Origin: Actinomycetota bacterium
GTDB lineage: Bacteria > Actinomycetota > Thermoleophilia > RBG-16-64-13
DNA length: 56,844 nucleotides
NCBI GenBank assembly: GCA_012514635.1
Contig: JAAYZX010000036.1
Coordinates: 1-56,844, forward strand
Reading direction: 5' to 3'
Shown: one piece after another, positions 9,049 to 49,883 of the stretch
How the letters are laid out: each line of letters starts with the position of its first letter
Numbering within the stretch: the stretch's first letter is position 1
Translations under genes and position numbers: made by a program
Notes under the pieces: generated by a model
What the model saw: the letters and a program-made list of their open reading frames with translations, nothing else
Database searches by the model: none
Told to the model about the DNA's origin: nothing

Positions 9049-9607
9049 ACCTGCGGGAACTACTGCTTCGCCTACGTTTGGTTCCTCCGCGGCGGCAAAG
9101 ACTTACGCGGCGGCGGTCGACGGAAACGAGTATCTTGTAGGAGTGGAGCGGGCGGATAATGATTGGCGTGTACGGGTGAATGACGGAGAGGTCATGGCCG
9201 CCGACTTCGTTACCAAGGGTGCCTTTGCGCAATACTCGCTACTGCTGGACCACCGTTCTTATGAGGGCATAGCCGAAGTGAACGGTGAAGGTCTGAAGGT
9301 GTGGGTGGAAGGAGAGCCGTTCCTGGTGTCGGTGATGGACCAGCGCCTCAAGGCACTGGCCGGAGGACGTGCGCTGGGTGCACGCTCACAACAAGCCGCC
9401 TTCAAGACGCCCATGCCGGGCATGGTTGTGGACGTCATGGTGGAGTCGGGTGCGGAAGTAATCAAGGGTCAGCCGCTGCTGACTTTGGAAGCGATGAAGA
9501 TGCGGAACGATCTCAAATCACCGCGGGACGGACAAGTCAAGAGTGTCTTGGTCCAGGCCGGCCAGACGGTGGCCAAAGGCGATACACTGGTCGAGTTTGA
9601 GGACTGA
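9038..9607 (+). CDS. Biotin carboxyl carrier protein
   Basis: 189 aa. The C-terminal biotinyl domain carries the biotin attachment motif EAMKM with Lys154, preceded by the family's FKTPMPGMV turn. The first 30 residues are Ala/Ser/Thr-rich and linker-like. Residues about 30-105 form a beta-rich segment resembling the carrier-associated domain of propionyl-CoA carboxylases. The gene overlaps the biotin carboxylase stop by 11 bases, so the two are likely translated together. It is the last gene of the plus-strand operon and completes a three-polypeptide acyl-CoA carboxylase. Confidence 0.9.
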   Translation: MAGEPAGTTASPTFGSSAAAKTYAAAVDGNEYLVGVERADNDWRVRVNDGEVMAADFVTKGAFAQYSLLLDHRSYEGIAEVNGEGLKVWVEGEPFLVSVMDQRLKALAGGRALGARSQQAAFKTPMPGMVVDVMVESGAEVIKGQPLLTLEAMKMRNDLKSPRDGQVKSVLVQAGQTVAKGDTLVEFED

Positions 9608-9616
9608 GAAGAAATA

Positions 9617-9652
9617 GCCCGCCCCCGCCGCCGGGGTTTGGCGGGGGCGGGC
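9617..9652. terminator. Bidirectional hairpin between convergent operons
   Basis: A 13-bp perfect stem, GCCCGCCCCCGCC at 9617-9629 against 9640-9652, with a 10-base loop, sits in the 66 bp between the converging ends of the carrier gene and CoA ligase 2. It has no clear T-tract. It probably stops transcription from both sides. Confidence 0.65.
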
Positions 9653-9673
9653 GTCGTCGTGGGGGACGACAGT

Positions 9674-11221
9674 CTAACGGGCCGTCAGAGCGGTCCGTAG
9701 CTCTCTCTTCAGGATCTTTCCGCTAGGATTCTTGGGTAGCTCATCCACGAAGTAAACGAGGCGCGGCTTCTTGTAGCCGGCAAGGGTGGAGGCGCACAAC
9801 TCCACTACGTCTTCCTCGGTTACTGTACGGCCGGGCTTGGTCACCACGCAGGCTGTGACCACCTCGCCCCAGTGATCGTCTGGGAGTCCAATGACCGCAG
9901 CCTCCAGTACGGCGGGATGCGTATAAAGGATGCTCTCGATCTCCTTGGTGTAGATATTGACACCGCCGCTGACTACCATGTCCTTCTTCCGATCCACCAC
10001 GAACAAATACCTGTCTTCATCCAGGTAGCCGACGTCTCCCGTGTGGAACCAGGTGCCGCTCACAGCGGCCGCCGTCTCTTCGGGATTGCGCCAGTATCCA
10101 GAGATGTTGGAGCGGCTGCGGACGAGGATCTCTCCGACCTCACCGATTCCTAGAGCCTTGCCGTCGTCGTCGATGATGCGGACGTCGGCGCCGGTGGCCT
10201 CGCGGCCGGCGGAGGCCAGACGTGTCAGCTTCTTTTCATCGTCATCAGTGATCTGGTGGTCTGATGTCACCAGGAATGTAGCCTCCAGAGTTTCGGTAAG
10301 CCCGTAGCCCTGCGTGAAGCCGCACGGCAGTGCGCTTAGGGCTCTACGCAGCACAGCAGGTGGCATGGGGCCTCCGCCGTAGAAGATGAGGCGGAGACTG
10401 GATAGGTCGAAATCGCCCAGATGGGGATAGTTGAGCACAGTATTTATCATGGTAGGTATGAGCAGGGCTACAGTGGCCTTGTGTTCCTGTAACGCCTGCA
10501 GCCATATATCGGGATTGAACCTATCGCACACCACCTGTGTGCATCCCAGCATGGTGTAGGTGACGGACATGAACACGGCGCCCATGTGATATAGGGGGGT
10601 ACCGATGAGGTTGACGTCCTCGTGATGGCTGCCGTCGGCCACGAACTGGTTGAAGCCGTTGGCCTCCAGATTGAGATGGGAAACCATGGCCCCCTTGGGC
10701 AGTCCTGTGGTGCCGCTGGTAAAGAAGATGCTGAAGGTATCGTTTTGGCTGTTGGGTGAATAGACAGGAGTGGGAGGTGAGGCTGACAGTTGCGCCTCGT
10801 AGTTGTGCTCGTCGGGTTGGTTGTCGTCGCCCACCACCCATATATGCTTGAGGGAAGGTAGTAGCTGTTTCAGTTCGAAGGCCTTGTGTGCGTCGGAGCT
10901 CCCCACGATCATGAGTGCGGGCTCAGCTGTGGAGAGGATCTCATGTAGCTCAGGTACCGTCAGTCGATAACTGAAGGGCACCACGATCATGCCGGCCCGC
11001 GCGCAGCCGTAGTAGGCTTCGGGATACTCCAGACAGTTGTGCATCAGCGTGGCTACGCGATCATTGCGCTGCAGGCCCAGGCGTTGCAGGGCGTGCGCTA
11101 AGCGATCCACGCGCTCGTCCACCTGTCCCCAGGTTCGGGTGATCTCGCCCATCACGAAGCCGGGCTTATCGGGATAGCGGGCGCCGTTGCGGCGGATGTA
11201 CTCGTCAAGTGTCCAATCCAT
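9674..11221 (-). CDS. AMP-forming acyl-CoA synthetase (CoA ligase 2)
   Basis: 515 aa ANL-superfamily CoA ligase. The P-loop reads FTSGTTGLPKGA, followed by GYGLTE in the middle and DRKKDMVVSGGVNIY at the hinge. The C-terminal catalytic lysine lies in NPSGKILKREL, the canonical form. The start has GGAGAAAG upstream. It is the last gene of the minus-strand operon, 24 bp after the small mutase subunit. It resembles medium or long-chain fatty acid CoA ligases in general, but the acid is not predictable. It is clearly different from CoA ligase 1, so each half of the island has its own ligase. Confidence 0.85.
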   Translation of the reverse strand: MDWTLDEYIRRNGARYPDKPGFVMGEITRTWGQVDERVDRLAHALQRLGLQRNDRVATLMHNCLEYPEAYYGCARAGMIVVPFSYRLTVPELHEILSTAEPALMIVGSSDAHKAFELKQLLPSLKHIWVVGDDNQPDEHNYEAQLSASPPTPVYSPNSQNDTFSIFFTSGTTGLPKGAMVSHLNLEANGFNQFVADGSHHEDVNLIGTPLYHMGAVFMSVTYTMLGCTQVVCDRFNPDIWLQALQEHKATVALLIPTMINTVLNYPHLGDFDLSSLRLIFYGGGPMPPAVLRRALSALPCGFTQGYGLTETLEATFLVTSDHQITDDDEKKLTRLASAGREATGADVRIIDDDGKALGIGEVGEILVRSRSNISGYWRNPEETAAAVSGTWFHTGDVGYLDEDRYLFVVDRKKDMVVSGGVNIYTKEIESILYTHPAVLEAAVIGLPDDHWGEVVTACVVTKPGRTVTEEDVVELCASTLAGYKKPRLVYFVDELPKNPSGKILKRELRTALTAR

Positions 11222-39257: not shown

Positions 39258-40745
39258 ATGAATGAACTATATATTCTGACTGCGGTAATCCTAATTGTGG
39301 TGGTGTTGGTCGCCGCCCTGCTGGAACGCTGGAGCGTCCCCGTTATTCTGGTGGCTCTGGGGACGGGGATCTTCTTCGGCAGCGATGTGCTTGGGTTGTG
39401 GGATTTCAGCGACGTCATCCTCACCAACCAAGTGGCCAACCTTGCCCTGGTCTTCATCCTGTTCCACGGTGGATTCAGCACGCGCCGAGAGGATTTCCGA
39501 TCCGTTGCTCTGGTCGCGGGAGGATTGGCCACGTGGGGGGTAATACTGACGGCTGCAGCCACTTTCGTCATTCTGTGGAGAGTGCTGGGATGGCCTTTGC
39601 AGGAGGCGATGCTTTTGGCCGTCATCATCTCCTCCACCGACGCAGCCGCCACGTTCTCGATTCTACGCCGCCAGCGGATCCCTCGGAAGCTGTCGTCCAC
39701 TCTGGAAATCGAAAGCGCCGCCAACGACCCCATGGCCATACTTCTGACTGTTGCGGCCGTCGATGCCTTCACCTCTGGAGCGGGCCCCTTGTACATGGTG
39801 GCGTTGTCGTTTCTTTGGAAGGCGGCGGCGGGGATTGCCATCGGCTGGCTGCTGTCCTATGCGGCGATTTGGCTGTTCAATCGCCTGGGGCCTCGGGACC
39901 GCGGCCACTACTATGTATTGATGCTGGGCATCGTTCTTCTGATGTATGGTCTGGCCGAAGTGTCTCGGGCCAGTGGGATGCTGACGGTATTCATCGCCGG
40001 GTATATGATTGGTAACCGCCCGTTTGTCCACAAGCAGGGAGTTAACAATTTCTCTGCTGCCCTCTCCACCATCGCCGATATTGGTATGTTCGTGCTGATG
40101 GGACTGCTGATTTCTCCGCGACAATGGGCCACCCTATGGCTCAAGGGCGTAGTGCTGTTTCTTGTGCTGACCTTCATCGCCCGTCCTGTGGCTGTGTGGT
40201 TGGGTACGGTGGGGATGAAAATAGGTCTCAAGAATCGCGTGTTCATCTCTTGGGCGGGTCTAAGGGGAGCGGTTCCCATCATTTTGGCCACTTATCCTCT
40301 GGCAGCGGGACTGGAGGTGGGACGGGACGTGTTCAACTTGGTGTTCTTCGCGGTACTCATGTCCGTACTCGTTCAGGGGTCCTCTCTGGGGGTCGTGGCC
40401 AAATGGTTGAGACTATCCAAGGAATCTCGCCCGCAACCGCTGCACAACCTCGAGCTTCTCACCATGGCCCGGAGCGATATGGACCTGATCGTGGTGGACC
40501 TTCCGGATCCCCAAGGCGCGCGAGGTCCCCGTATCCGCGATCTTCCACTCCCCGAAGGATCCGTCATTGTATTGATCACCCGTGGCGCTGACGTGATCGT
40601 ACCCAAAGGCAACACGCACTTGGAGGGCTGGGATCAAGTCACGGTACTGGCCCACATCAAGGACGAGGCCGCGGTGCGCTCCGCCCTGCTCGATGGAGAA
40701 TTTGTGCCACCGGATGCCGAGGATGAAGAAGAAACGGCCGGTTGA
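39258..40745 (+). CDS. CPA1-family cation/proton antiporter (NhaP2-like)
   Basis: 495 aa. About twelve hydrophobic segments fill residues 5-385. The transport-site motif is in ESAANDPMAILL (the Asn-Asp pair of electroneutral antiporters), with SSTDAAATFSIL before it and GLRGAVPIILATYPL after it. The last 90 residues form a TrkA-C-like regulatory domain (LPEGSVIVLITRG, then HLEGWDQVTVLAH), as in NhaP2-type K+ or Na+/H+ exchangers. It probably sits in the cytoplasmic membrane and controls pH or cation balance. It stands alone between groEL and the glycosyltransferase fusion. Confidence 0.88.
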   Translation: MNELYILTAVILIVVVLVAALLERWSVPVILVALGTGIFFGSDVLGLWDFSDVILTNQVANLALVFILFHGGFSTRREDFRSVALVAGGLATWGVILTAAATFVILWRVLGWPLQEAMLLAVIISSTDAAATFSILRRQRIPRKLSSTLEIESAANDPMAILLTVAAVDAFTSGAGPLYMVALSFLWKAAAGIAIGWLLSYAAIWLFNRLGPRDRGHYYVLMLGIVLLMYGLAEVSRASGMLTVFIAGYMIGNRPFVHKQGVNNFSAALSTIADIGMFVLMGLLISPRQWATLWLKGVVLFLVLTFIARPVAVWLGTVGMKIGLKNRVFISWAGLRGAVPIILATYPLAAGLEVGRDVFNLVFFAVLMSVLVQGSSLGVVAKWLRLSKESRPQPLHNLELLTMARSDMDLIVVDLPDPQGARGPRIRDLPLPEGSVIVLITRGADVIVPKGNTHLEGWDQVTVLAHIKDEAAVRSALLDGEFVPPDAEDEEETAG

Positions 40746-40896
40746 AGTGATGACCAATCTGTGACGATCGTCGGTATAGGCCACGATCTCATGTCTTCGC
40801 TCGTCTGAGCCGGCGCGCCGGCTCAACACTCGCACGGTATAGTGATATCCGCCCGCAGAACAAAGGGGGCATGTTCCTGAGAGAGGGTGAAAATAG

Positions 40897-43068
40897 ATGC
40901 ACGTGAATGGCCGGTGGATCAATATGCCCGGTCTGCAACATGGTCGGCAATATGATTTGTCGGTGGAACTGTTGCCGGAATATCGCAGGCTGTTCAGAGA
41001 GCACGGGATTCCGATTTGGGAGAAGGGGGGAGCCGCTGAGTCCGCCCGCCGGATCGTGATGGTGTCCACCCACGGCTACTGGGGGGATCCGCCACCAGCC
41101 GGTGTTCCTGATACCGGGGGACAGACTTACTACGTCCTTGAGGTGTCAAAGGCATGGGCACGGCAGGGGCGGCAGGTGGTGATCGTAGCACGGCATTTCT
41201 CGCCATATCCGCGTGTGGAGCAGTACGCGGATAACCTGTGGCTGGTCCGTGTACGCGCCGGCGGTGACGGCTTTGTTCGCAAAGAAGATATCTATCCTCT
41301 GGCTCCCCAGATGGCGGAGGGGGTGGTCGCGGTCGCCGATCTATTCGGGGCCGATGCCGTAATGGGACACTATGCAGACGGCATGGTGTGCGCACTTGAG
41401 GCGGCGGAGCAGCTGGAGATACCCCTTGTGGTCATCCCGCATTCGCTTGGGATCAACAAGGTTCTATCTCTTGGATTGGATCCCGACGACCCGGCCGTCT
41501 GGTTCGATAAGCAGTATAACTTTCGCATACGGGAGGACTTCGAACTGGCCGCCCTGCGGGGAGCCGATTTCGAGATCGCCAACACCCTGCAGGAACCCCA
41601 TATCCTGAAGGAATACTATGGGGCCGAGTTTCCCCATGCCGTTATGCCGGCGGGAGCGGGCACGCCCTTCTTTGATATAGCCGCCGATCCGTGTCGCAAA
41701 ACGTTGAACGAACACGGTCTCGCCCCGCAACGATATCTCCTCTACTTCGGACGCTTCTCCGAGGCCAAGAACGTGCCCGGCGTCGCCCGCTTGTACGGCG
41801 AGGCGCGCAGGATCGCTCCCGAACTGATGAAGGAAGTACGGCTGGTTCTGGTGGGAGGTTCTCCTGATAATCACCTGCCCGAGGAAGCCGGAGTAGAAGA
41901 ACAGCTCAGCTGCGCGTTGAGCGAATACGGACTGTCCACTGCGGAGGTGGTGAGGCTGCCCAGTCAGCCGTGGCCGGTTTTGGCCACACTTGCCCACCAC
42001 AGCCTCTGTTACGTGGGAATGCAGTTTGTGGAGCCTTTCGGGATGGGGGTGGCCGAGAGTATGGCGGCGGGGGCTCCAGTGATGATCTCCGGGAACGCCG
42101 GGATCACGAGGTGGATGGAAGACGGTGTCAACGCTCTGGTTGTTGACCCTGGGGACCCGCATTCCGCCGCCCAGAGGCTCATCGACGCGTTGGCGGTTCC
42201 CGGGACTTTGGAGCGGATCGCCGCGGGCGGGAATCATCTGGCTCGTGACACGTTCAGGTGGGATGCCATCGGACGGCGCCAGGCCGACATCCTCGATGAA
42301 CTGTGTTCGAGGGGGGCAGGGAGCCGGGGGCGTGCGTATCACCGGACCACCTTCACTTGGCGTGGCGACCCTCCGCGGGTAGAACCTCATCACACGCGGA
42401 CGGCCCGTATTCTTCTGCCCTATGTGTGCGACAAGGTGGAAGATATGCGTCCGGCGAATATGCGGGCGGTCGTCGTTCTGGCCGGAGAGTCGGGAGCCGG
42501 CAAGACTGAGGTGGCGGAATATCTGCGTTATCTATTAAGGAGCCGGGGGATGCGTGGAGTGACCGTCTCAGGAGACGCTTTCTTCCGATTGGGGCCGGAG
42601 GCCAATCATCGCGCACGCCTCGATGCTTATGCGCAGGGAGAATTGGACGCATACCTAGGGCCGGAAGAGGTCGATATAGAGCGATTGGACGCCGTTCTGA
42701 AACAGGCGACCAATCGGGCGGTTGACGAAATTTTCGTCCCTTCGGACTGCCGGAGGCTTGCATCGCGGTGTTATCCTCAGGTGCCTCTCTCCCTTCGGGG
42801 GGCGGATGTAGTTCTTGTGGATCTGACCTATGGAATGGCTCTCAAAAATGTAGTCTTGAAAGTTTTCCTCGAAACAGACTATCGCGCCAGGATCGCTACA
42901 GTGAAGGCAAGGAATCTTGAGCGCGACCCGGATCAAGACTTCGCCTTCGTAGAAAAGGTTCTAGAGATTGAGCACGGCATTATAGAGGGCATGAAAGAGG
43001 TCGCCGATCTCGTTCTGACTGAAACGCGGGAGGGCCGACCTAACGGGACTGCGAGTGGAGTTGGATGA
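40897..43068 (+). CDS. Glycosyltransferase family 4 protein fused to a P-loop kinase
   Basis: 723 aa. Residues about 45-490 are a GT-B glycosyltransferase resembling sucrose/mannosylfructose-phosphate synthases: PDTGGQTYYVLEVSKAWARQ, VIPHSLGINK, YFGRFSEAKNVPG, and the donor-site region FVEPFGMGVAESMAAG. Residues about 525-700 are a separate P-loop kinase domain with LAGESGAGKTE (Lys536) and a uridine kinase/phosphoribulokinase-like ending. Such a pairing could make a sugar-phosphate donor or acceptor and couple it to transfer, perhaps in compatible-solute or glucosylglycerate-type synthesis; this is inference. No matching phosphatase is adjacent. A lipoprotein gene overlaps its last 14 bases. 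Confidence 0.8.
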   Translation: MHVNGRWINMPGLQHGRQYDLSVELLPEYRRLFREHGIPIWEKGGAAESARRIVMVSTHGYWGDPPPAGVPDTGGQTYYVLEVSKAWARQGRQVVIVARHFSPYPRVEQYADNLWLVRVRAGGDGFVRKEDIYPLAPQMAEGVVAVADLFGADAVMGHYADGMVCALEAAEQLEIPLVVIPHSLGINKVLSLGLDPDDPAVWFDKQYNFRIREDFELAALRGADFEIANTLQEPHILKEYYGAEFPHAVMPAGAGTPFFDIAADPCRKTLNEHGLAPQRYLLYFGRFSEAKNVPGVARLYGEARRIAPELMKEVRLVLVGGSPDNHLPEEAGVEEQLSCALSEYGLSTAEVVRLPSQPWPVLATLAHHSLCYVGMQFVEPFGMGVAESMAAGAPVMISGNAGITRWMEDGVNALVVDPGDPHSAAQRLIDALAVPGTLERIAAGGNHLARDTFRWDAIGRRQADILDELCSRGAGSRGRAYHRTTFTWRGDPPRVEPHHTRTARILLPYVCDKVEDMRPANMRAVVVLAGESGAGKTEVAEYLRYLLRSRGMRGVTVSGDAFFRLGPEANHRARLDAYAQGELDAYLGPEEVDIERLDAVLKQATNRAVDEIFVPSDCRRLASRCYPQVPLSLRGADVVLVDLTYGMALKNVVLKVFLETDYRARIATVKARNLERDPDQDFAFVEKVLEIEHGIIEGMKEVADLVLTETREGRPNGTASGVG

Positions 43069-43945
43069 CTTAGCATCACGCTGCTGCTCGAAGGACCGGG
43101 GTCGTGGGAGCCGGGCTACGCCTGCTTACAGCGCTCGGGGCTACGCGATCTGGTCATCGTGCCTACTGCTGATCCTCGGCGGTATCGTTGTTTTCGGCGC
43201 CGCCTGCGGTGGGGGAGGGCAACGGGACCCGGCCTACGGGACCGTGCTCACGGTCGAGCAGGCCCTGGCTGCTCAGCCGGGCGAGCCTATCAGTGTCACT
43301 GGGGCAATCGTCGCCACGGGGAGTGGAGCCGATATGCAGATGGTTCTCGCCTCCGTTCTGCTGGAGTCGTATCCGCCTCAGGCCGGAGGAGCTATGCTGC
43401 CGGTTGCCGGCCTCGACTCAGCTTCTCTGGTGGGGCTCAGTTCCACCGTGGGCCGTCCGGATCTATCCCCGGTGACGTGGTCCGATTATTGGTTGACCCT
43501 GCACGGAGTCATAAAGAACGGGATCCTGGAAGTCCAAGGCGTGCCTCAGGTGGCGGAAGCGTCGTCCGGAGACCTACAAGTGCGTTTCAGCCCCGTGAGT
43601 GAGCCGTTGACCGCCGGCGGGACGGCCGTTTGGTGGGCCTTCGACATCCAGAACATGGGTGCAGGCGCCGCGGATCTTACATTCTCCAGCGGACAGAGGG
43701 CGGACGTGGTTCTCAGCCGAGATGGAGTGGAGAAATACCGTTGGAGCGCAGACAAGGTCTTCACGCAGGCTCTGGAGACCGTCACTGTGGCCTCGGGCGA
43801 GATCCTACCGATCGTCCTCAACGATGAACTGATGGTGGAGGCGGGCCGGTACGATCTGCGTGCCACGATCGTCGCTGCCGTAGGGCCGGACGGCGCGGAG
43901 CCCTCGCTCCTGCCGGAACTCAACCTCACCGTGACCGTCTACTGA
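43055..43945 (+). CDS. BsuPI-domain putative lipoprotein
   Basis: 296 aa. A hydrophobic stretch (IWSSCLLLILGGIVVFGAAC) ending in Cys51 and four glycines looks like a lipoprotein signal with a weak lipobox, after a polar N-terminus of about 30 residues. Residues about 180-290 match the BsuPI/IPI intracellular proteinase inhibitor fold (FSSGQRADVVL, RWSADKVFTQALETV). The domain is often found in secreted Gram-positive proteins with unknown partners. The start (GTG 43055) overlaps the glycosyltransferase-kinase gene; no internal ATG or GTG lies before the signal. Role unknown; a surface-anchored binding or inhibitor function is possible. Confidence 0.72.
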   Translation: MELDDLASRCCSKDRGRGSRATPAYSARGYAIWSSCLLLILGGIVVFGAACGGGGQRDPAYGTVLTVEQALAAQPGEPISVTGAIVATGSGADMQMVLASVLLESYPPQAGGAMLPVAGLDSASLVGLSSTVGRPDLSPVTWSDYWLTLHGVIKNGILEVQGVPQVAEASSGDLQVRFSPVSEPLTAGGTAVWWAFDIQNMGAGAADLTFSSGQRADVVLSRDGVEKYRWSADKVFTQALETVTVASGEILPIVLNDELMVEAGRYDLRATIVAAVGPDGAEPSLLPELNLTVTVY

Positions 43946-44455
43946 CCGGGGTGGCGCGGCAGGGCGTCGCGGTCAAGGCTCCTGCCCGTGGAAAGTCCGA
44001 AGACGGGACGCTGCGCCACTTCGCCTTCCATTCATCTGGCGCATAGCCTTGGTGGGCACGGATTCCTCCGGCATGACCCTTGGGGGGGCGTCTATCTGGA
44101 GGCCACCAGCGGGCGAGTCCAGATGCAGCTGGGTTACTGATGTCGCTGACACTGCGGTCAGGAAAAACGGGGTGTATCGCCCCCAGTTACACTGCCGCCC
44201 GCTCTTCGGACGTATACGGTCGAAGAATGATCTTTCCCTTGCCCGGCATGGTGACGCCACCCTTGCCGGCATGACCCCAACCTGCAGGGACGGCGAGATC
44301 GCCGGCCTGGGGATCGAGATTGCCCCCGCCCATCCGCGTGGCCACGCCGATGACCTTCATCTCCGGGTGGATGTCCCCGATGGCGACCCATCGACGTGCC
44401 CTTTTTCTCCACGCGGCGTGTGTGTATGCTCTTGCGACAGCGAGGGGAGCAACGA
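43946..44455. other. 510-bp region with decayed coding sequence
   Basis: Between the lipoprotein and the DUF3850 gene there is no intact gene. Bases 44187-44395 are a remnant of a restriction-modification C-terminus (separate entry). Bases 43946-44186 hold several short open frames, one ending in GHGFLRHDPWGGVYLEA, but none matches a family I recognise. Confidence 0.5.
44187..44395 (-). pseudogene. Remnant of a second restriction-modification gene C-terminus
   Basis: In one minus-strand frame this reads PEMKVIGVATRMGGGNLDP, GWGHAGKGGVTMPGKGKIIL and RPYTSEERAAV, then a TAA stop at 44187. It is about 90% identical at DNA level to 46780-46985 of the large restriction-modification gene in the same orientation. 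It lacks a start, the methyltransferase core and the remaining C-terminus, so it is a fragment left by duplication or deletion. It shows that a paralogous copy once lay here. Confidence 0.75.
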
Positions 44456-46445: not shown

Positions 46446-49400
46446 TCAAGCCGGAGCCTTCCACTCCCACGTGTTCTCCTTCACCGCCAGGTAATTGGCA
46501 TCCAGCGCCGGCTGCAAGAGCAAGATCGCCGCGATCCGTCGGGCCATGCGCATGACCTCGCGCACCTCCGCCGGCTTGAGGTCCCGCCCCAGGAGCGGCC
46601 GCTCCCGGTAGCTCAGCCACTTCTTCATCACCTGGTACCCGCCGATGGTATAGCTCCACACCCTCGCCGGCACACATCTCCAGTAGGCGAGGTCGTTCAG
46701 GTAGACGTCGACAGCTTGATCTCCGAGTTGAGCGAACGCCTCCTCCGCGCTGAGACCCAGGGCCTCAGCCCCCTGCTCCACGGCCACCCGCTCTTCGGGC
46801 GAATACGGTCGAAGAATGATCTTTCCTCTGCCCGGCATGGTGACGCCACCCTTGCCGGCGTGACCCCAACTCGCGGTGACGGCGAGATCGCCGGCTTGGG
46901 GATCGAGATTGCCTCCACCGACCCGCGTGGCCACGCCGATCACCTTCATCTCGGGGCGGATGACCCCGGTGGTGACTTCGTCGACGTCGGTCTCGGGATC
47001 AAGCACGTCGGCCACCTTGCGGCCCAGTTCGGCCGAGGCGAGGAGCAGTTCCTTGCTGTTCGGGAGGGGAATGCGGGGCCAGCCGTGTCTCAGGCCCGAA
47101 TGATTCTCCGTGCGATACCACCGTGACTGGAGCACAGCATGAGAGTGGAACATCACAGCCTCTGCTGGAATTGCCGCGGCCGCAAGATAGGTATGTAGCT
47201 CGTCTGACGTGTTCTCCGATCTAGACGTCGAGTCTAGGAGCGTCGCATGAACCTTCTTCGCGAGGAGTGGGGTGGCGCGAGCGCCACTGTCCAGGAAATT
47301 GTAGTCCGCCAGGTTGGTACAGATGACCGAGGGTTCAACGAGATCCTTGCGCGTCCGCCCAGTGGTCAGCAGGAAGTAGTTGCCACGGAGTACGCTATCG
47401 AAGTACTCGGCGCGGTTTCTGTCGAGCAGCTTGGTTTCGCGCTCCTAGTATAGCCAGCGGTTATCGAGGGGCCGATAGCAGTATCGAACCACATTCTCAG
47501 GCCGAAAACCGCGGCGGAGCAGCTTCTCCCTCGTTTGCTGTGCCTTGAATCCTGAAGTATCGGTCATAGATGCGGGCGATAGTTGGCGCATCATCTCACT
47601 ACTGACAGAGGCATCGAGATAGGTCCCTATGCGGCGCACAAGATCCTCTCTACTCATGTCCACCAGGAACGAATCCCGACTTGTTGTGACACCCGGAGTG
47701 GACACCGGGAACATGTCCGGAAGCGACGGCCAGTCAACGTAACAGGAGTCAACAGTCGTCGCCATGAACGGCAAGCCAAGGGCATTGTGAGGGCCGAGGG
47801 TTGTGTAGCCGGCGGGCAACAGGTCGCGCGCAACCTGCGCCAACTCCTCCCGCTTCTCCACTCCCCAGAACTGTGCCACACTCACCGAGTCCGCCGGCCG
47901 GTGCTCCTCCCTTCGCGCCAGCAGCGCGATGGCGGTACCCACCTGGATCCCCTCCCGGTTGTGTTCGGTCGAGAACACGCTGGGGTCGGGCTTGCCGTCG
48001 GGGGTCAGTTTGCCGGTCTTGTATTTGTCGCCGTTCAGGCAATCGATCCAGATCTTGTCGAACACCTCCAAGTAGCGCTCGCGCATCCCCGTGAACGACA
48101 GACCGTCCAGCCACGAGTAGTTGGAGATGAAGCATACGATGCCCTTGCCCGTCTTCTCCACGATGCGGCGTTCGGCCATGCGGAAGAAGCGCACGTATAG
48201 GTCGTTCAGACCTTGGCCCTGGGGCGGCGGCGCTTTCTTTGTCGTGCGGTAGGCATCGGTGAGACCGCGTTCTTCGGCGGCAGGCATGCCCGCGTACCCG
48301 TTGTACGGCGGATTCCCCAGGATCACCAAGATCGGCAACTCCTGCTTCACGTGCTCGGCGGCGTCGCGCTCGGCGTCCAGCTCCGGCAGCGCCGACAACT
48401 GCTCGTGCTCGTGCGGCTTTTCCCATCCCGTGAGCGCGTTGGTCAGGAACACTCCCACCCGTTCGCTCTCCCCCAGAGGCAGGTGCATGTTCTGGAGTAA
48501 CAGACCCAACTGCATGTGGGCTATCACGAAGGGCGCGGGCAAGATTTCGAACCCGAAGACCCGTTCCATGGCCGCCTTCTTGATCTCACCCGCGGAGAGG
48601 GCGTCGGCTCCCTTCTCGTCCAGCGTTTGGCTGATGCGCTCCAGCACCTCCACCAGATAGGCGCCGGTGCCGCAGCAGGGGTCGAGCACATACACCCGCG
48701 GGTCGGCCAGGCCGTCGGGCACGTCCAGCTCCTCGCGCAGCACCGTGTCCACGCGTGCCACCATGTATTCGACGATCTCCGGCGGCGTGTACCACACCCC
48801 CAGTTCCTTGCGTAGCACAGGATCGAACGCCTCCAGGAACGGTTCGTAGAAGTACTGGACGGCGTGATGCTGCTCGAATCTCTTGAAGAATGCCCGTCTA
48901 TCTACTCGGTTGAGCGCCGCGGCCGCCTGCTCGAGAACCGGCACCAGTTGCAGCGAGCCCAACAGGTGGGGAGTGGCGATCTGAGTGAAGAGCGCCTGCA
49001 CCACCGGCACATGCAGGGTCCAGGCGGCGGTTCTCCAGTCGAAGTGGGCGCCGTCGTCGGGCTCATGGTCGTGACTCCACATGACCCAGGAGGCGAACAG
49101 GCCGTAGAAGAGGGTCTGGACCAGCGTGGACCGGAAGAAATGCTCTCCTTTTGGACCCTCGAACTGTACACCCAATCCCTCTTCGAGCGATCGGCGCACC
49201 GCGTCCAACGCCGGCAGCTCCGCCGATTCGGTCAAGAAGCGGGCCTCGCGCGCATACGAAGCGAGGAACCAGGCCAGATCTTGCGGCGACGCCAACGTGG
49301 CTCCGGAGAGCGACACGCGTTTGAGAAACTCCAGAAAACGTTCGCCCTGCTCCTGTTCGGTGCGGCGCGGGTGGTTGGCTGCCGCCCAGAACTCGGCCTC

Positions 49401-49883
49401 GGTGGGGGCGATCTGGTAGCGCTCCAGCACAACGGGTGCACCCCTGGCATCGAGGCTCAGCAGCTGGAATTCACGTAAGTTGGTCACCAGCACTTGACGG
49501 TAGGCTTCCAGGTAGCCCATGACCTGCTCGGAGGCGGCTGTGACGTCGATGTCGACGGAGGGCGCCTTCACCTCGATGGCGCCGCGGGCCGGCTTCTGAC
49601 CACCCAAGAGCGGGTGCAACAGACCGTCGGCGCCGATTGCCGCCGGTTCGGCTCTTTTGGTGGCGCGTGTGCGCCGGATTTGGTCGGCTGTGAAGAGGCC
49701 GCCGTCGGGAAGCCCGGCGCCTCGGTTGCGGATGTTCATGACACAGCGGACCTTGGGCCTGAGCCTGTCACCCACATCTTCTAACAAAGATCGTAGCGCC
49801 GGATAGAAAGAGAGCTCGGACACTCCTTCGCCTGAAAGCCTGATATCTCGTACGTCGGTCAGATAGCGCTCAACCGGCCCCAT
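46446..49883 (-). pseudogene. Single-chain restriction-modification enzyme interrupted by one in-frame TAG
   Basis: Read through the stop, 1145 aa. An N-terminal PD-(D/E)xK-like nuclease region (LPDGGLF at 59-65, GAIEVKAPSV at 101-110) is followed by a N6-adenine methyltransferase core: DPCCGTGAYL at about 398, GNPPYNGYAG at about 520, then the C-terminal target-recognition-like part with WPRIPLP, GHAGKGGVTMPG and YTIGGYQVMKKWL. A TAG at 47445-47447 falls after DNRWLY, where relatives commonly have YW, so a TGG to TAG change is likely. Both sides stay in the same frame and the second half has no start of its own. The first 812 residues could still be made. Function: type ISP/IIG-like DNA cleavage and protection without a helicase. 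Confidence 0.85.

Follow-up and report, generated by a model that had tools for sequence, protein, structure and literature searches.

In this study, we report a fusion gene located at positions 40897-43068 of the forward strand of contig JAAYZX010000036.1 (assembly GCA_012514635.1), from an Actinomycetota bacterium of the class Thermoleophilia; the whole stretch of 56,844 nucleotides was analysed and is referred to here as the window. The gene encodes a 723-residue protein in which a glycosyltransferase (GT) resembling sucrose-phosphate synthase (SPS) is followed by a P-loop kinase of the AgaSK sucrose-kinase family. The product is a real, conserved bifunctional protein, in which domains of known kinds are combined in a new way, and it possibly represents a new sucrose route. 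We propose, tentatively and at somewhat less than an even chance, that it has two active sites sharing the intermediate sucrose 6F-phosphate, the kinase acting first and the GT then running the SPS reaction in reverse. The preliminary description of this DNA had regarded such a chain as unusual and had named, as one ground for refutation, an architecture already on record with a known product. No description of an SPS-sucrose kinase fusion was found in the open-access literature searched, and the titles and abstract openings of the AgaSK papers name no GT fusion.

A conserved GT-kinase fusion

The joining of a GT to a P-loop kinase, as first read from the sequence, was borne out by Pfam (GT4 domains across residues 74-442 and, below threshold, a PRK/uridine-kinase match from residue 525), by Foldseek searches with both halves and by the conserved full-length relatives. 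The two-domain layout of the preliminary description also stood, whereas its bounds of residues 45-490 and 525-700 are refined here to about 52-470 for the GT and 501-715 for the kinase, separated by a linker at 471-500; its GESGAGKTE motif was located at residues 530-538. The features of the gene, by position in the window, are as follows.

40879..40889, +, Shine-Dalgarno-like site GAGAGAGGGTG, 5' of the fusion start codon (from the sequence)
40897..43068, +, fusion gene, bifunctional SPS-like GT4 - sucrose-kinase-family protein of 723 residues (open reading frame (ORF); full-length relatives 59-70%)
41050..42306, +, GT-B (GT4) domain, residues 52-470, like SPS, MshA and sucrose synthase (Pfam, NCBIfam, PDB alignment, Foldseek)
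41281..41283, +, Lys129, aligned with Arg105 of the T. elongatus enzyme TeSPS (alignment to 6kih; PMC7264703; invariant in 7/7)
41530..41532, +, Arg212, aligned with TeSPS Arg178; Gln in the sucrose synthases 4rbn and 3s27 (alignment; PMC7264703)
42307..42396, +, conserved linker, residues 471-500, motif YHR..F.WRGDPP (comparison of full-length relatives)
42397..43041, +, P-loop kinase domain of the AgaSK sucrose-kinase family, residues 501-715 (profiles, tree, alignment, model)
42484..42507, +, Walker A motif GESGAGKT, residues 530-537 (sequence; conserved in the family alignment)

The ORF begins with ATG, and the site ahead of it appears to be a good ribosome-binding site.

A pattern scan of a collection of species genomes gave 45 candidate stretches, which yielded three relatives, two of them full-length: L025 from a Syntrophales metagenome-assembled genome (MAG; 70% identity) and L026 from a Deltaproteobacteria MAG (59%); loci are denoted here by L numbers and genomes by G numbers. 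Altogether the fusion was present in nine genomes including that of the window. It is full-length and in one frame in seven, the six other than the window being 59-70% identical to the 723-residue window protein; in G343 it is split across two contig ends (L072 and L073), and in G344 it is frame-broken. The seven-row alignment used below was made without the frame-broken L071 and the G343 copy, both of which are counted among the ten GT-kinase genomes considered later. In the frame-broken copy (L071:2-2084), the stretch that follows the catalytic Asp of the kinase is missing as well, and the copy would reflect either decay or a sequencing error in its genome.

An assembly artefact, a frameshift fusion or a degenerate gene could be suspected, as the assembly behind the window is a draft in 129 contigs, the gene occurs in just one of 299 genomes of the class and the relative L071 is frame-broken. 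The fusion was not made by a frameshift, because six other genomes hold full-length single-frame relatives. The catalytic residues of both halves were also invariant in 7/7 full-length fusions, dN/dS values of about 0.11-0.25 for each half (three pairs tested) indicated purifying selection, and the adjoining exchanger gene is native to the host family. The probability left to an artefact is negligible; as regards the architecture it is refuted, and with it the frameshift that the preliminary description had named as a possible cause.

The two halves and their relatives

Sequence matches of the GT half in the PDB were led by the SPS of H. orenii (2r60) and of T. elongatus (TeSPS, 6kih), sucrose synthase and MshA, and Foldseek ranked MshA and SPS top for this half. 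Because the whole-protein AlphaFold model was weak here (mean pLDDT 61), the active site was read from the sequence alignment, residues being matched to TeSPS by alignment to 6kih with three tag residues allowed for by our own count. K129, R212, H182, E379, R286 and E387 were matched in this way, and all are invariant in the seven fusions; the GT-B GT4 fold is accompanied by E-x7-E (E379, E387) and the catalytic His (H182). In the solved structure of TeSPS, Arg105 and Arg178 hold the phosphate of sucrose-6-phosphate (PMC7264703). Both positions are kept in the window GT (K129, a conservative Lys for Arg105, and R212 for Arg178), in L006 and in the GT of L074 described below. In the sucrose synthases 4rbn and 3s27, which use free fructose as acceptor, the R212 position is occupied by Gln. 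With the phosphate-holding residues kept here and Gln in sucrose synthases, the GT half seems adapted to an acceptor or product that carries phosphate. Sucrose synthase itself was ruled out: ahead of its GT-B core it carries two accessory domains at the N-terminus (PMC11046441), which are absent from the about 51 residues ahead of the core here, and Arg212 stands where Gln would be expected.

For the second half, Foldseek returned uridine-cytidine kinases. A kinase-only model (residues 501-715), predicted from a 16-row family alignment, had a mean pLDDT of 90 and the fold shared by uridine kinase, pantothenate kinase and PRK; structural comparison with these and with glycerate 3-kinase gave VIA Z values of about 11-18. 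Family membership was decided from sequence and never from fold, and plain uridine kinase, pantothenate kinase, PRK and glycerate 3-kinase were rejected although their folds match, because by sequence the domain falls with the AgaSK group. The earlier label 'uridine kinase-like' is thus right for the fold but passes over the family, the kinase grouping in profiles and tree with AgaSK and the phosphorylase-paired kinases. Against the NCBIfam uridine kinase cut-off of 180-220 bits, the window kinase scored 18.5 and 17.9 bits. In profile searches (database size set to 100,000; 4,527 stretches and 23 kinases searched), the window kinase was recovered at E 5e-13 by a profile of the Agathobacter AgaSK-type and L044 kinases; conversely, a profile built from the fusions alone recovered L044 at 1.9e-18 and the AgaSK-type domain at 8e-17. 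The four uridine-kinase-like controls gave 1.7e-3 to 0.5 with the former profile; with the latter, one gave 0.048 and three were not found. A PRK-like protein of L027, used as a further control, gave 0.011 and 3e-4, respectively. By these profiles, which agree in both directions, the window kinase is assigned to the AgaSK sucrose-kinase family, for which the Pfam and NCBIfam scans run held no curated family of its own. K536, P567, N570 and R574 are invariant in 7/7 fusions, and a P-x2-N-x3-R stretch after the catalytic Asp, a signature of our own drawn from the set examined, is also present in the AgaSK-type, L038-L042, L044, L057 and L074 kinases. The L057 kinase is carried by a Gemmatirosa plasmid.

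Kinases of this family were found beside phosphorylases in several genomes. Those of L038, L039 and L040 overlap by 4 nt the GH13_18 genes of strict sucrose 6F-phosphate phosphorylases, L044:4409-7042 encodes a single-chain fusion of the kinase and such a phosphorylase (GH13_18; 877 residues) in an actinobacterial genome, and in L056 an AgaSK-type kinase is followed by its phosphorylase. In a tblastn search against plasmids, a match fell on the C-terminal end of an alpha-galactosidase from Agathobacter rectalis, whose gene lies immediately upstream of that of its phosphorylase; PMC6521584 gives the same gene arrangement for R. gnavus AgaSK-RgSPP. All five phosphorylases (L038, L039, L040, L044 and L056) carry KXXYYQ, the published marker of strict sucrose 6F-phosphate phosphorylases (PMC7178133). 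The L039 phosphorylase (genome G164) is identical at 523/523 residues to the crystallised IcSPP of Ilumatobacter coccineus (6s9u), for which PMC6720575 reports strict sucrose 6F-phosphate specificity. That the kinase and the phosphorylase are tied in a single cluster has been published before (PMC6521584, PMC7178133). An early guess, a glycerate kinase acting with glucosylglycerate, was dropped, the neighbouring GH13_18 genes being of the KXXYYQ type.

A second pairing with a GT was found in the desulfobacterial genome G380, where a family kinase stands on its own (L074:8733-9377) and, after a gap of one base, the gene of a separate SPS-like GT begins (9379-10653). This GT retains all nine of the residues checked, yet is only 28% identical to the window GT. 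As these genes read, the kinase and an SPS-like GT are linked twice, in different forms, once as a fusion and once as adjacent genes.

Other neighbours were observed in this family. L041:5601-7775 and L042:7353-9452 encode homologous proteins of 724 and 699 residues, each overlapping a sucrose-kinase-family gene by 4 nt; they had no match in Pfam, NCBIfam or the PDB (for L042, in a Pfam search only) and are a candidate enzyme acting on a phosphorylated disaccharide. In L043:2-3985, a family kinase is followed by a beta-phosphoglucomutase-like HAD fused to GH65, a layout suggestive of another sugar being used by way of a phospho-disaccharide. The Syntrophales fusion gene is adjoined by a convergent MFS transporter gene (L025:6362-7594; Pfam MFS_1) with weak similarity to phosphoglycerate/hexose-phosphate transporters, and the genes next to the fusion in L068, L069 and L070 resemble this transporter by their first residues alone.

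Proposed reaction and alternatives

The ten GT-kinase genomes (G000, which is the window's own, G330-G332, G343-G347 and G380; completeness given for G000 only) were searched for sucrose enzymes. GH13_18 phosphorylases were found in 0/10 and GH32 in 0/10, the latter being positive in 4 of 14 control genomes. PF05116 (sucrose-phosphate phosphatase) matched in 11 of the 14 controls and in one of the ten, G000, where the match (L081:280-1854) reads, by sequence alone, as a GntR/FadR-type regulator joined to a Cof-like HAD. A synthetic SPS would need a phosphatase, and the kinase needs a consumer of its sucrose-phosphate. Because no phosphatase or phosphorylase was recognised, the GT is the natural consumer.

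In the proposed route, the C-terminal kinase would convert sucrose and ATP to sucrose 6F-phosphate, with fructosyl C6 as the predicted site, and the N-terminal SPS-like GT4, working in the cleavage direction, would convert sucrose 6F-phosphate and a nucleoside diphosphate (NDP) to NDP-glucose and fructose-6-phosphate (F6P). Sucrose 6F-phosphate was chosen because it is the simplest intermediate common to a sucrose kinase and an SPS-like GT; what the analysis shows is the fusion and its conservation, the family of the kinase, the intact GT with its phospho-acceptor residues, the separate gene pairing and the absences, whereas sucrose as the substrate, the 6F position, the direction and the nucleotide are inferred from these. 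The net reaction would be that of sucrose synthase plus fructokinase with the phosphate added before cleavage, and the route would parallel the one through the kinase and sucrose 6F-phosphate phosphorylase, NDP taking the role of phosphate. By free energies, the kinase and reverse SPS steps are together favourable, whereas the two steps run the other way are not. The two linked steps by way of a sugar phosphate that the preliminary description offered accord with the architecture; its order of phosphorylating a substrate and then glycosylating it is kept as a rival, the family evidence favouring phosphorylation of a disaccharide followed by cleavage by the GT.

Several points weigh against this proposal. 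SPS is generally regarded as acting in synthesis. The best NCBIfam family of the GT half, the SPS glycosyltransferase domain TIGR02472, was matched at 101.2 bits, far below its cut-off of 576, and for this reason the half is called SPS-like and not SPS. No sucrose transporter or other sugar gene adjoins the window gene, and the search of the ten genomes, in which no phosphatase for sucrose-phosphate was recognised, took in GH13_18, GH32 and PF05116 but not amylosucrase, sucrose synthase, other sucrose enzymes or transporters. The window and AgaSK kinases are distant, the L039 kinase being 29% identical to the AgaSK-type domain. The family is not limited to sucrose, as the L043 and L045 kinases are without the signature Asn and adjoin a HAD-GH65 gene (L043) and an ABC sugar system (L045). 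Finally, the RgAgaSK kinase, with a Km for sucrose of 1-3 mM and a kcat of 2.4-3.3 s-1, is reported (PMC7688924) to phosphorylate glucose C6 of sucrose and not fructose C6, which would misfit an SPS-type site.

This last report stands in contradiction to the gene partners, as the adjoining phosphorylase and the SPS-type partner both need the fructosyl phosphate. For that reason we predict that the kinase family phosphorylates fructose C6 of sucrose, and the fusion makes the position testable with one protein. More tentatively than for the protein itself, we suggest a third intracellular route of opening sucrose, namely phosphorylation followed by SPS-like cleavage in reverse with both sites on one chain, and with it a kinase family that could serve as a general disaccharide-phosphorylating module joined to GH36, GH13_18, GT4 and perhaps GH65 and the unnamed 700-residue family.

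An unlikely alternative is that the shared intermediate is some other phosphorylated glycoside, such as mannosylfructose-phosphate or a glucosyl-polyol phosphate, and that the donor is not NDP-glucose. GT4 specificity is unreadable from sequence at about 28-30% identity, the company kept by the L043 and L045 kinases fits such a reading, and no sucrose genes adjoin the window gene; on the other side, the window kinase, unlike those of L043 and L045, keeps the P-x2-N-x3-R of all the examined sucrose-phosphorylase-linked and AgaSK-type kinases.

We regard it as rather improbable that the kinase supplies the acceptor, making F6P from fructose to which the GT would add glucose from NDP-glucose, giving sucrose 6-phosphate. 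The phospho-acceptor residues of SPS in the GT would suit this, and among the structures matched by the kinase fold is 3c8u, which carries the annotation of a putative fructose transport system kinase. F6P is, however, already a central metabolite, and none of the ten genomes showed a recognisable sucrose-phosphate phosphatase. The family kinases adjoin phosphorylases requiring sucrose 6F-phosphate, which a fructokinase would not supply, and the characterised relative RgAgaSK acts on sucrose (PMC7688924).

Improbable to a much greater degree is a protein in which the GT acts first, making sucrose phosphate, and the kinase takes over from the phosphatase of SPS-phosphatase fusions by running in reverse, so that ATP is formed and sucrose is freed to serve as a compatible solute. 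The kinase does occupy the C-terminal place that a HAD phosphatase has in bifunctional SPS such as L006 (our own reading), and the lack of a recognised phosphatase in the ten genomes would be accounted for; a sugar kinase is, however, strongly biased against ATP formation by its free energies, and the phosphorylase-paired kinases must run forward.

Genomic setting and comparison with known systems

In the phylum of the window (Actinomycetota), 9/296 genomes, the window's own included, matched the fusion-kinase profile at E<=1e-5, these relatives being mostly lone kinases of 215-220 residues. At 1e-15, 1/299 genomes of the class matched, which is the window's own, and the 17 other genomes of the same family gave no match in that search. 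In the family of G330 (the genome of L025) the kinase was found in 7/19 genomes, and in its phylum in 10/395 at 1e-8, three of them below 1e-70; of the seven weaker matches, four were inspected and read as uridine kinase-like, the remaining three lying outside the inspected set. The order of G380 gave a match in 1/2 genomes, and among viral contigs none of 95 pattern matches was a relative. In the kinase tree, the GT-fusion kinases formed one clade (100/100), with the window kinase beside L025 (support 95/87) inside a Syntrophales group; the deep branches and the joining point of AgaSK were unsettled. The fusion gene was probably gained horizontally from a Syntrophales-like donor. The genes flanking it are as follows.

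39258..40745, +, Na+/H+ exchanger, upstream of the fusion, 84% identical to a gene of another genus of the same family
43055..43945, +, ORF with a BsuPI domain and a lipobox-like N-terminus, GTG start, overlapping the fusion by 14 nt

The exchanger anchors the contig in the host and speaks against a contaminant contig, and base composition showed no jump. A contig join error is a residual possibility, synteny beyond the exchanger not being conserved in the same-family relative. The BsuPI ORF, which has no known functional link to the fusion, reads as a lipoprotein from its N-terminus, in keeping with the overlapping lipoprotein gene noted earlier, and the absence of an adjacent phosphatase also held, as none was found by Pfam among the near neighbours (the exchanger and the BsuPI protein). 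Elsewhere in the window, the region 46446-49883 (-) holds a type ISP restriction enzyme specificity domain at 46449-47156 and, apart from it, a long frame that we read as methylase-like (47445-49883, -); 209 bp of the tail region are repeated near 44179 (44179-44387) at 88% identity.

Through one kinase family, three lines of work, on AgaSK, on sucrose 6F-phosphate phosphorylases and on SPS-like transferases, are tied together. If the proposed cleavage is true, a single polypeptide would turn sucrose into NDP-glucose and F6P, and phosphatase-less SPS-like enzymes should not be annotated by default as makers of sucrose. AgaSK of R. gnavus (GH36 with a C-terminal kinase of about 215 residues) likewise carries a homologous kinase of uridine-kinase-like fold behind a sugar-active enzyme; its partner is a GH36 hydrolase in place of the SPS-like GT, and it adjoins a sucrose 6F-phosphate phosphorylase gene, which 0/10 of the GT-kinase genomes have. 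The kinase and phosphorylase pairs (IcSPP, RgSPP) use the same kinase family with a partner that cleaves phosphorylated sucrose to activated glucose and F6P; that partner is a GH13_18 enzyme using phosphate, whereas the fusion would use a GT4 with NDP. Sucrose synthase with fructokinase has the net reaction proposed for the fusion in the opposite order of steps, and differs in its N-terminal accessory domains and in the Gln found where the fusion family has Arg212. SPS (EC 2.4.1.14; HoSPS 2r60, TeSPS 6kih) shares with the fusion the GT-B fold, the catalytic His and Glu and both phosphate-holding positions, although the fusion GT is 30% identical to the SPS of L006 and far below the curated SPS cut-off, and the C-terminus of SPS holds nothing or a HAD phosphatase where the fusion has a kinase. 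The bifunctional SPS-phosphatase (L006, for example, by our own reading) comes close in plan, joining an SPS-type GT4 to a C-terminal domain that acts on the phosphate of sucrose-phosphate; its HAD phosphatase drives synthesis, whereas the C-terminus of the fusion, a P-loop kinase without HAD character, would have the opposite effect.

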